From: Salisaeta longa DSM 21114
GTDB lineage: Bacteria > Bacteroidota > Rhodothermia > Rhodothermales > Salinibacteraceae
Reading direction: 5' to 3'
Assembly: GCF_000419585.1 (NCBI RefSeq)
Contig: NZ_ATTH01000001.1
Coordinates: 2,068,005-2,132,004, forward strand
DNA length: 64,000 nt
Shown here: positions 18,199 to 22,537 of the stretch, in pieces
Numbering within the stretch: position 1 is the first letter of the stretch
Layout of the letters: each line of letters opens with the position of its first letter
Made by a program: the position numbers and the translations under genes
Notes under the pieces: generated by a model
Database searches by the model: none
The model's input: only the letters and a program-made list of their open reading frames with translations
Told to the model about the DNA's origin: nothing

Positions 18199-18424
18199 GG
18201 CGCGGGTTCGGTTGGGCGGTAACGCATCGTTAGAGCGGATCAGCCGGCGGCGCGTTCCCCCATGCGGCCCCTAATCCGCCAAATCCACGCGCACCAGTGC
18301 CGCAATCCACTAACGCCCCGCGGGCGGACGGATCGCTACGAACATGTTGCGTTGCCGGTGTGCACTTCCGCGGCCCGCGCGGTATGTTACAGGTGCGCAT
18401 CTTCACACATTGCTGCTTTTCGCT

Positions 18425-21265
18425 ATGAGCCGTTGGGAAGGATTAGACATTGAAGCCGAAGGCACCGGCATCTCGAAGCCGCTCAGCCGCCAGGTAAACC
18501 TGTTGGGGGCCATGCTGGGGCAGGTAACCGCTGAGCAGATGGGTCCGGAGATGCTGGAACGCGTCGAGCGTCTGCGGCTGCTGTGCAAGCAGGCCGCGCA
18601 CGACGATGCACCCGCGCGCCGCGACGAAGCTGCCGAGGAAATCGCGGGCCTGTCGCGCGACGACCTTACGGACCTGCTGCACGTCTTCACGACTTTCTTT
18701 CACCTGGTCAACCAGGCCGAGAAGCAAGAAATCATTCGGATCAACCGCGACCGGGCCCGCGCTGCCGGACCGTCGCCGTGGCCACCCGGCGGCAATGCCG
18801 ATCCGGCGGCGCCGCACCGTCCCGGCTCTATTGACGCGGCCATCGCCGATCTGAAAGCCGATGGGCACTCGCTGGACGAGGTGCAAGCCCTCTTTGCCCG
18901 CACCGACGTACAGCCCACGCTCACCGCGCACCCCTCCGAGGCCCGCCGCCGCACCGTGCTCCAAAAACAGCACACCGTGGCCCGCCTGCTGGCCACCCTC
19001 AACGATCCCGGCGCCACGCCCGACGAGCAAACCGAAGCCCTCGACGCCCTCTACACCCAAATCGCGCTGCTCCTAAGCACCGACGAGGTGCGGGCCGAGC
19101 GGCCCACCGTGCGCGAAGAAGTCGAGCAGGGGCACTACTTCATGCACCGCACCATCTGGGACACCGTCCCGCAGATTCATCGCGACGTGCAGCAGGCCCT
19201 CCGGCGCCACTACGGCGCCTCGGCCGACGTGCCGGCCTTCCTCAAATACCGCTCATGGATCGGCAGTGACCGCGACGGCAACCCGAACGTAACGGCCGAC
19301 GTGACGCGGTGGACGTTTGTAAAGCAGCGCCGCGAAACCATCGAACACCTCCAGGAAGAGATCCGCGCGCTGCGGGACGAACTGAGCCTCTCCGACCGGC
19401 AGGTGCCGGTCTCGGACGCACTCCGCACCTCGCTGAGCGACGACGCGGAGGCCCACACGCTTCCCGATGCGCAGGCCCGCGCCTACCGGCACGAACCCTA
19501 CCGCCGGAAGCTTGCCTTCATCGATCAGAAATTGGACGCCTTGGTGCAGGCGCTGCCGCCCGGCACGCCGAGTCAGGCGCAGCTGGCGGACCTCGATGCG
19601 GCGTACACGCCGGCCGACCTCCGCGACGAGCTCTCCGCCCTCGCTGCGAGCCTCAGGGCCCACGGGCTGGCCGACGCCGGTTACCTGGGGCGCTTGCACC
19701 GGGTGCAGGTGCTGGTTGATACCTTCGGGTTTCACCTTGCCGCGCTCGATGTGCGCCAGCACAGCGGCGTGCATGAGCGGGCCGTCGCGGCGCTGCTTCG
19801 CCACGCCGGTGTGACGGACGACTACGCGGCCCTCGACGAAGCCGACAAGCAGGCCGTGCTCACCCGCGAACTGTCGAACCCGCGCCCCCTCGTTCCGGTA
19901 GATGCCGAGCTGCCCGACGCGGCCCGCGAGCTCCTGGCCGCCTTCCGCAGCCTGCGCGCCATCCACCGCCTCGATGCCGACGCCGTGGGCAGCTACATCG
20001 TGAGCATGACCCACTCGGTGAGCGACATTCTGGAGCCGCTGCTGCTCTTTAAGGAGGTGGGGCTCGGCCGCATCAGCGACGACGGGTTTCAGTGTCCGGT
20101 AGATGTGGTGCCGCTCTTTGAAACGATTGATGACCTCGACGCCGCCGACGAGCGCATGGCCGCGCTGTTCACGCACGAGGCGTACCGGGCGCAGCTGGCC
20201 CATCGCAACCACTTTCAGGAAATTATGCTGGGCTATTCCGACAGCAACAAAGACGGCGGCTACTGGATGGCCAACTGGGCGCTGCACCGCTCCATCGACC
20301 GGCTGGGACAGGTGTGCGCGGCGCACGACGTAGACCTCCGCCTCTTTCACGGGCGCGGCGGCACCGTGGGGCGCGGCGGCGGCCACACCTATCAAGCCAT
20401 TCGCGCGCTGCCGCCGTCGGTGCACAACGGCCGCATCCGGTTTACCGAGCAGGGCGAGATCATCTCGTTTCGCTACGGGCTGCCGGCGCTGGCGCGGCGG
20501 CACGTAGAGCAGCTCGTTAGCGCGACCGTTACCGCCACCGCCGGGCGCGACACGCAAGCCACCGTAGACGCCGACGGACCGCTTGCGGCTGCGATGGACG
20601 CGCTGGCCCAACGCGGCATGGACGCCTACCGGGCCCTCATCGACGCGCCTGAGCGCTGGACCTGGTACACGCAGGCCACGCCCATCGAGCACATCAGCCG
20701 CCTGCCGATTGCCTCGCGGCCCGTCTCCCGCGGCAGCGGCGAGCAATCGTTCGACGACCTGCGCGCCATTCCGTGGGTGTTTGCCTGGACGCAAACGCGC
20801 TACATCGTGCCGGGCTGGTTTGGATCGGGCGCGGCCCTGGCGGAGGCGGTGGCGGACGACGCCACCCGCGAGCGCCTGCAGGAGGCCTACCGCACGTGGC
20901 CCTTCTTTACCGCCGTGCTCGATAGCGCGCAGCGGGAGATGGCCCGGGCCCGCCTGCCCATCGCACAGCGCTACGATGCCCTCAGCGACACCGGCGACGC
21001 CGTGCACGATGCCATCACCGCCGACTACGAAGCCGCCCGCGACGCCATTTGCGCGCTTACCGGCCAAGACGATTTGTTTGACAACAGCCCCGTACTGAAA
21101 AAGTCAATCCGCCTGCGCAATCCGTACACCGACGTGCTCAACCTGCTACAGATTGAACTCCTCAAGCGCTACCGTGCCGGCGACGACGATGCACAAGCAG
21201 CCCTGCGCGAACCGCTCTTTTTGAGCATCAACGGCGTAGCCGCGGCGATGCAGAGCACCGGCTGA
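18425..21265 (+). CDS. ppc: Phosphoenolpyruvate carboxylase
   Basis: 946 residues from the ATG at 18425 (MSRWEGLDIEAEG). It has the N-terminal catalytic His motif LTAHPSEARRRT (His169), the YSDSNKDGGYWMANW segment near residues 604-618, and the glycine-rich HGRGGTVGRGGG loop near 640-652. The C-terminal LRNPYTDVLNLLQIELLKRY and the end in STG are typical. It carboxylates PEP to oxaloacetate and refills the TCA cycle. No obvious promoter was found in the 226 bases shared with the divergent DUF58 gene. Confidence 0.97.
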   Translation: MSRWEGLDIEAEGTGISKPLSRQVNLLGAMLGQVTAEQMGPEMLERVERLRLLCKQAAHDDAPARRDEAAEEIAGLSRDDLTDLLHVFTTFFHLVNQAEKQEIIRINRDRARAAGPSPWPPGGNADPAAPHRPGSIDAAIADLKADGHSLDEVQALFARTDVQPTLTAHPSEARRRTVLQKQHTVARLLATLNDPGATPDEQTEALDALYTQIALLLSTDEVRAERPTVREEVEQGHYFMHRTIWDTVPQIHRDVQQALRRHYGASADVPAFLKYRSWIGSDRDGNPNVTADVTRWTFVKQRRETIEHLQEEIRALRDELSLSDRQVPVSDALRTSLSDDAEAHTLPDAQARAYRHEPYRRKLAFIDQKLDALVQALPPGTPSQAQLADLDAAYTPADLRDELSALAASLRAHGLADAGYLGRLHRVQVLVDTFGFHLAALDVRQHSGVHERAVAALLRHAGVTDDYAALDEADKQAVLTRELSNPRPLVPVDAELPDAARELLAAFRSLRAIHRLDADAVGSYIVSMTHSVSDILEPLLLFKEVGLGRISDDGFQCPVDVVPLFETIDDLDAADERMAALFTHEAYRAQLAHRNHFQEIMLGYSDSNKDGGYWMANWALHRSIDRLGQVCAAHDVDLRLFHGRGGTVGRGGGHTYQAIRALPPSVHNGRIRFTEQGEIISFRYGLPALARRHVEQLVSATVTATAGRDTQATVDADGPLAAAMDALAQRGMDAYRALIDAPERWTWYTQATPIEHISRLPIASRPVSRGSGEQSFDDLRAIPWVFAWTQTRYIVPGWFGSGAALAEAVADDATRERLQEAYRTWPFFTAVLDSAQREMARARLPIAQRYDALSDTGDAVHDAITADYEAARDAICALTGQDDLFDNSPVLKKSIRLRNPYTDVLNLLQIELLKRYRAGDDDAQAALREPLFLSINGVAAAMQSTG

Positions 21266-21348: not shown

Positions 21349-21867
21349 ATGTCGACCCCTGCTGCCTCCTCGAACCTTCCGCACGTGGTGCAGCCTAACG
21401 CTGCGGCCTTCGCCGAGCGCCTCAGCGCCGTTGCTACCGCCTATCAGCACAACGAAGGCGCGTGCATTATTTTCTGGGGCGGCTCGCGGGTCGCGCACCA
21501 ACAAACGCTACCCGCCATCATGGAGCGCACTACCGATACGATCCATCAGTTTACGCTGGGCAACCTGCTGGGCGAGCGCCGGATGCAAACCCAAAGCGCG
21601 CTCCGCAAGGCGTTCGACCATGCCGCGGAAGAAGACGCGCTGCTGTTCTTTGAAGCGGCCGACGTCATCTTCACGTGGTCGCACGACGATTCGCCGCACC
21701 AAACGAACGAGGCCATGCCGTCGACCGCCGAGTACTTCTTTCAGCGCGTGACGGCGTTTACCGGCCCGGTGGTGCTTGCTCTTGACGACGCCACCCCCCT
21801 CGCGGCCCTCGATGATCCCTCGCCCGTTGTAATGGTTGTGGCGTTTGACAACACAGACGCTCGGTAA
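21349..21867 (+). CDS. Degenerate AAA+ ATPase-like protein (pseudo-ATPase)
   Basis: 172 residues. The order of elements matches a classical AAA+ core: a Walker A position reading FWGGSRVAHQQ (43-52), LLGERRMQTQSALRKAFDHA (73-92), a Walker B position ALLFFEAADVIF (97-108), and a second region of homology ending in YFFQRVTAFTGPVVLALDD (129-147). The GxxGxGK lysine is gone and the D-E of Walker B reads F-E, so ATP binding and hydrolysis are unlikely. The protein ends soon after the core, without arginine-finger or lid parts. It follows ppc by 83 bases. Alternatives are an unrelated protein with chance likeness or a decaying gene. Confidence 0.6.
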   Translation: MSTPAASSNLPHVVQPNAAAFAERLSAVATAYQHNEGACIIFWGGSRVAHQQTLPAIMERTTDTIHQFTLGNLLGERRMQTQSALRKAFDHAAEEDALLFFEAADVIFTWSHDDSPHQTNEAMPSTAEYFFQRVTAFTGPVVLALDDATPLAALDDPSPVVMVVAFDNTDAR

Positions 21868-21934: not shown

Positions 21935-22537
21935 ATGCGAAGCAAAGGAACGTTGGTGCTTGTTGCACTTGTGGCACTGTTGGGGCTCGGCGGATGTGCC
22001 GGCGTAAGCACTTATAACGACATGATTGCGGCCCAGGAGAACGTGAAACAGGCATGGGCCAATGTCGAATCGAACTACCAGCGGCGGGCCGACTTAATTC
22101 CCAACCTCGTAAACACGGTGCAGGGAGCGGCCAACTTCGAGCAAGAGACCTTGCAACGTGTCATTGAAGCCCGCTCGAAGGCCACCTCCATACAGATCAG
22201 CGCCGACGACCTGAACGATCCGCAGAAATTGCAGCAGTACCAGGCCGCGCAGCAAGCCCTCGGGCAATCGCTGGGACGGCTCCTGGCCGTTTCCGAGCGG
22301 TACCCGCAGTTGCAGGCCACCGGCGCCTTCCGCGACTTGCAGGCGCAGCTTGAGGGGACCGAAAACCGAATTAACGTGGCCCGCCGCGATTACAATGCCG
22401 CGGTGCAGCGCTACAACACGCAGATCCGGCGCTTTCCCGCCAACATCGTTGCAAACCTGACGGGCTTCGAGCCGCGGGCACCGTTTGAGGCCGATCCCGG
22501 CGCTGCCCAGCCGCCTGCCGTAGACTTCGGGAGCTGA
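21935..22537 (+). CDS. LemA family lipoprotein
   Basis: 200 residues. A lipoprotein signal ends at GLGGC, followed by the LemA signatures STYNDMIAAQENVKQAWANV and YQRRADLIPNLVNTVQGAA. The rest is helical with coiled-coil character. LemA proteins are membrane-anchored helical bundles of unclear function, often beside TPM-domain (YgcG) genes, none of which is present. It follows the pseudo-AAA+ gene by 67 bases and converges with the SLC13 gene. Confidence 0.93.
   Translation: MRSKGTLVLVALVALLGLGGCAGVSTYNDMIAAQENVKQAWANVESNYQRRADLIPNLVNTVQGAANFEQETLQRVIEARSKATSIQISADDLNDPQKLQQYQAAQQALGQSLGRLLAVSERYPQLQATGAFRDLQAQLEGTENRINVARRDYNAAVQRYNTQIRRFPANIVANLTGFEPRAPFEADPGAAQPPAVDFGS

Follow-up and report, generated by a model that had tools for sequence, protein, structure and literature searches.

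Known pseudo-AAA+ proteins are mostly parts of larger proteins or eukaryotic regulators. A small gene of Salisaeta longa, situated between ppc and lemA in the window (the whole stretch of 64,000 nucleotides analysed here), raises the question of whether a single free-standing AAA+ domain may lose its ATP site and still be maintained in bacterial genomes, and of what such a protein might do. The initial annotation had described the product as a small, intact AAA+ relative without Walker A and Walker B residues, encoded behind ppc. The open reading frame is indeed uninterrupted from ATG to TAA and follows ppc on the same strand (Table 1); the gene region showed no sigma-70-type promoter, a result that is uninformative in this phylum. 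Antisense to ppc runs a 604-codon open frame (window 19253-21067, minus strand), for which high G+C content is the likeliest explanation. The annotation had also placed the protein beside a pseudo-galactokinase as a second pseudoenzyme of the window, and had suggested that such proteins may be adapters made out of former enzymes; on that context, one search found the galactose-binding domain PF10509 nowhere in the genome.

Table 1. Positions in the window of the pseudo-AAA+ gene, its sequence elements and its neighbours
Feature	Coordinates	Strand	Remarks
ppc, phosphoenolpyruvate carboxylase	18344..21265	+	Pfam PF00311, E 4e-268; 83 bp upstream of the pseudo-AAA+ gene
Pseudo-AAA+ protein	21349..21867	+	Intact ORF of 172 codons (172 aa), ATG 21349, TAA 21867; alpha/beta core only, without lid
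Degenerate P-loop GGSRVAHQ, residues 44-51	21478..21501	+	From alignment; active relatives have G-x4-G-K-T
Helix 2, residues 78-94	21580..21630	+	Best-conserved stretch; R86, F89 and D90 invariant
Degenerate Walker B LLFFEAAD, residues 98-105	21640..21663	+	Asp replaced by Glu, catalytic Glu by Ala
EYFFQR, residues 128-133	21730..21747	+	Y129 and R133 invariant; matches conserved SYLLQR of Pvc15-type AAA domains
Sensor-1 position, residue 146	21784..21786	+	Asp here, Asn in active relatives
lemA	21935..22537	+	Pfam PF04011, E 9e-58; 67 bp downstream of the pseudo-AAA+ gene

Searched singly against Pfam, the 172-aa sequence gave no AAA match, and evidence from its family was therefore needed. 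A profile of 24 family members matched AFG2/Cdc48/p97 in the PDB at E 2e-10, with AFG2 and Cdc48 best, and 20 of the 24 members matched Pfam AAA at E<1, weakly, the best at E 2e-5; NCBIfam yielded weak matches alone (IteA, best E 7.5e-4). The AlphaFold model (pLDDT 86.3, pTM 0.83), which informs on fold alone and not on oligomeric state, follows the AAA+ core in its beta-alpha order, and the chain ends there. Foldseek and VIA-align searches with this model returned AAA+ proteins throughout, among the matches listed, VIA-align reaching Z 12.8 with about 140-147 residues aligned. The proposed AAA+ ancestry is thus borne out by family profile, model and structure searches, and the protein has the alpha/beta core fold of the AAA+ superfamily; the helical lid is absent, as the protein stops at the last core strand and none appears in the model.

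On sequence comparison, the Pvc15/Afp15-type ATPases of contractile injection systems, and not FtsH, stand closest among relatives that retain an intact ATP site: the family profile scores 51-72 bits on Pvc15/Afp15-type AAA domains as against 1-6 bits on the genome's own FtsH proteins, and a profile-profile comparison against Pvc15-type AAA domains reaches 99.2% and E 2e-19. In the tree, Pvc15-type domains stand beside the pseudo-AAA group and away from the AAA outgroup used. Two other sources were considered and rejected, namely a recent copy of a cellular AAA+ protein, since no other match in the own genome falls at E<0.01 and FtsH scores as just given, and a defence or phage protein, since PADLOC yielded no match and PHROGs weak ATPase matches alone.

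The residue losses were read from an alignment with ten intact relatives. The initial reading of the P-loop at residues 44-51 and of the loss of Walker A holds, His standing in place of the Walker A Lys; the loss of Walker B was also correctly recognized, but the acidic pair given as FE was one residue out of register, the D-E reading E-A. The same losses run through the near family: none of the 24 members, the window's GGSRVAHQ included, has a full Walker A (G-x4-G-K-[ST]), none has the sensor-1 Asn or the arginine-finger pair (P and S occupy the finger positions in the window protein), and every member lacks the lid. The pore-loop K-Y-[IV]-G, sited around the start of helix 2, is likewise not retained. 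The catalytic Glu of Walker B persists in four of the 24, three of which read FDEAD (L021, L023 and L024), and Lys or Arg occupies the Walker A Lys position in 21. The residue that follows this position is Gln in 23 of 24 near members, which argues that the change is fixed and not drifting, and R86, F89, D90, Y129 and R133 are, besides Met1, invariant in the 24-sequence profile. Judged from its sequence, the pseudo-ATPase status of the 172-aa protein is well supported.

A tblastn search of the window's order recovered 22 homologues in the same family in addition to the window's own, and clear ones in families f2 and f7. With the 24-sequence profile, the gene was found in 23 of the 27 genomes of the window's family (f1), one genome (G058) giving a partial match at a contig end; among genomes of the family and order without the gene, the 20 regions examined showed no hidden diverged copy beside lemA/TPR. 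The initial annotation had staked its proposal on an AAA+ match in profile searches and on conservation among close relatives, and it stands on both counts. Nei-Gojobori dN/dS ranges from 0.08 to 0.33 in close pairs; pooled over 16 pairs, it is 0.145 for the core, 0.10 for the degenerate P-loop, 0.08 for residues 78-109 (helix 2 and Walker B) and 0.37 for the N-terminal tail. The value for the P-loop means that the dead site is itself conserved, and the gene is under purifying selection, degenerate P-loop included.

Orthologues beside ppc, as the initial annotation had expected of relatives, were found: the gene lies directly after ppc in 15 genomes of the family, most of which then enter a cluster of envelope genes, lemA-TPM-TPR-LysM/RlpA-HtpX, and wherever gene and cluster are seen together they are co-oriented. 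In five relatives the place of ppc is taken by an S41 protease gene, divergent from the pseudo-AAA+ gene. An ancestral role tied to ppc was rejected on the strength of these five; since the link to ppc is not ancestral, the protein is unlikely to have a function connected with PEP carboxylase. Elsewhere in the order, other families possess the envelope cluster and lack the pseudo-AAA+ gene, and three of those examined carry S41 directly divergent from lemA. A block of M1 peptidase and S41 protease, divergent from the whole or part of the lemA-TPM-TPR-LysM/RlpA-HtpX cluster, is conserved order-wide (L072, L073, L100, L120-L122), whether or not the pseudo-AAA+ gene lies between the two parts.

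A second branch first surfaced in a class-wide profile search, as short frames in family f16, which is probably Balneolaceae. The profile built from four f16 frames detects a 180-225-aa protein in 63 f16 genomes, short-frame matches counted. Its predicted fold is that of the window's branch; it too is without the lid, sensor 1 is lost, K-N-G-D-like letters replace Walker B, and it reads Y-A-[TS]-P-Q-E-x-Y where Pvc15-type domains read [RK]-Y-A-N-x-E-x-x-Y-L-L. The first arginine finger is present in all 30 sequences examined, with R155 invariant, and the Walker A Lys is kept in 25 of the 30, Lys or Arg standing there in all. One member (L158:1501-2079, plus strand) has a formally complete Walker A, GRYKAGKT, without the Walker B Glu. 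The f16 gene lies close to, and is mostly convergent with, a gene for a putative metallopeptidase (PF18894) at 23 of 24 loci (L062-L065, L164-L183); a metallopeptidase partner shared by the two branches was rejected, PF18894 being absent from the window's genome.

The two branches match each other at E 8e-14 over 157 columns, which span an N-terminal extension absent from Pvc15-type proteins, and compared with Pvc15-type AAA domains they give E 2e-19 and 3.6e-18. In the tree they unite with SH-aLRT 93; because long branches meet there, a single origin of both is likely and not proven. Two further short forms, from other phylum genomes, have lost the P-loop and lid alone: a 186-aa frame (L188:912-1469, plus strand) and one of 152 aa from Met (L189:783-1256, minus strand). 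In both, Walker B, sensor 1 and the two arginine fingers survive, features that make them good candidates for arginine-finger donors. The tree places them among Pvc15-type rows and outside the pseudo-AAA group, which indicates that there was probably more than one origin of short forms without a P-loop.

We consider it probable that the gene encodes a selected single-domain pseudo-ATPase acting by protein binding, a role suggested because the scaffold is conserved and the chemistry absent. What the gene encodes is a classical-clade AAA+ domain reduced to its alpha/beta core and derived from the Pvc15/Afp15-type subfamily. The lid and every catalytic element are missing, scaffold helices and strands are conserved, and the degenerate P-loop is itself under purifying selection. 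It would not hydrolyse ATP and would probably not bind it in the usual mode, and it may hold another protein through the AAA+ surfaces that meet a ring neighbour or a client. Candidate partners would be a cellular AAA+ ring, into which it would be inserted as a dead subunit, and clients of the adjoining envelope cluster (LemA, TPM, LysM/RlpA, HtpX). As relatives across the class keep the dead state under selection, the protein has probably acquired a new role in binding other proteins.

A more specific mode of action, possible though rather unlikely, is that of an arginine-finger donor or ring-capping subunit of the LAP1/LULL1 kind, which would alternate with or cap a true AAA+ ATPase and switch it on or off. 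The second branch, with its finger in 30 of 30 sequences, matches the feature set of LAP1 (PMC4358337), and L188 and L189 retain both fingers together with sensor 1 and Walker B. The window's branch, however, has no arginine fingers and could at most be a cap or inhibitor; no ATPase that lacks an arginine finger of its own emerged as partner, and the genomes of L188 and L189 contain no full-length Pvc15-type ATPase at E<1e-20. A screen of the own genome's AAA+ proteins for partner candidates gave no clear one. A 603-aa AAA+ protein encoded in that genome (L077:448-2256, plus strand; contig C1, about 1,979,500) combines one intact ATP site (GPVGSGKT, MIDEAD) with a long N-terminal part and is a possible partner.

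That the protein is an ATP-independent chaperone or client-recognition module, which retained the substrate-binding face of a Pvc15-type ancestor and acts on an envelope protein from a neighbouring gene, we hold to be unlikely. Its position at the head of the conserved envelope cluster would fit, as would the reported unfolding by Pvc15 with Walker A and Walker B mutated (PMC11495950), but the pore-loop motif is gone, the second branch has a different neighbourhood, and the envelope cluster occurs without the gene in many genomes of the order.

It is improbable that the protein still binds nucleotide in an altered pocket, for example without hydrolysis. The length of the loop is kept, and Lys or Arg at the Walker A Lys position is frequent in the near family (21 of 24) and constant in the second branch (30 of 30); against this, other residues stand in place of the glycines and the Thr/Ser, neither the catalytic Glu nor sensor 1 survives, and the window protein has His for the Lys. 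For the family at large, the FDEAD of L021, L023 and L024, the P-loop of L158 and the Lys in 25 of 30 second-branch sequences count against the pseudo-ATPase reading, and judging from these motifs some nucleotide binding is possible in the FDEAD members, in L158 and in the Lys-keeping second branch. A decaying fragment or spurious ORF, to which the shortness and the single sequence's want of an AAA model match might point, is scarcely credible for a gene that is intact in more than 20 genomes, in conserved order, with dN/dS of 0.08-0.33.

Returning to the preferred reading of a protein-binding pseudo-ATPase, the missing arginine makes a cap, scaffold or client-binding role more likely in the window's branch. 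A broader and doubtful extension is that the whole class shares a free-standing, lidless and nucleotide-free AAA+ family that acts in trans as regulator of a cellular AAA+ machine, as an independently arisen counterpart of LAP1/LULL1 with Torsin, and that the window's branch later lost the finger and became a cap or scaffold. Neither literature on the family nor a family model describing it was found; it is a new conserved family among AAA+ pseudoenzymes, in an unusually minimal form. The analysis offers a testable function for genes to which family models otherwise give no good match, and the graded intermediates (L188 and L189; L021, L023 and L024) make a good system for studying the transition from ATP motor domain to binding protein.

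Among known systems, the p97/Cdc48, AFG2, FtsH and Vps4 modules share the core fold with the window protein (VIA Z 12.8) but are active ATPases with lids, at about 11-17% identity over the aligned core. The Pvc15/Afp15-type proteins have in common with it the SYLLQR/EYFFQR helix and the FD.AD strand; they are, however, frames of 430-1100 aa in which P-loop, Walker B and sensor 1 are intact and both a lid and two arginine fingers are present, and the N/D1/D2 architecture of Pvc15 with its active D2 site contrasts with the single degenerate domain of the window protein. Several Pvc15/Afp15-type genes lie in injection-system loci, whereas the window gene lies between ppc and lemA with no injection genes nearby. 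Pvc15 reportedly unfolds leader-tagged proteins despite mutations in Walker A and Walker B, and roles beyond that of an ATPase have been proposed for it (PMC11495950). The AAA+ fold of LAP1 is atypical: Walker A and the C-terminal lid domain are missing, and a single arginine finger is strictly conserved (PMC4358337). The lidless AAA+ domains of LAP1 and LULL1 give an arginine finger to Torsin and activate it (PMC4358337). The window protein resembles them in having an AAA+ fold without Walker A and without a lid, but they are animal/eukaryotic and membrane-anchored proteins with a conserved arginine finger, which the window's branch lacks; the second branch, without lid and catalytic residues and with the first arginine finger kept, fits the LAP1 pattern. 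Functionally, LAP1/LULL1 is the closest analogue, with no homology proposed.
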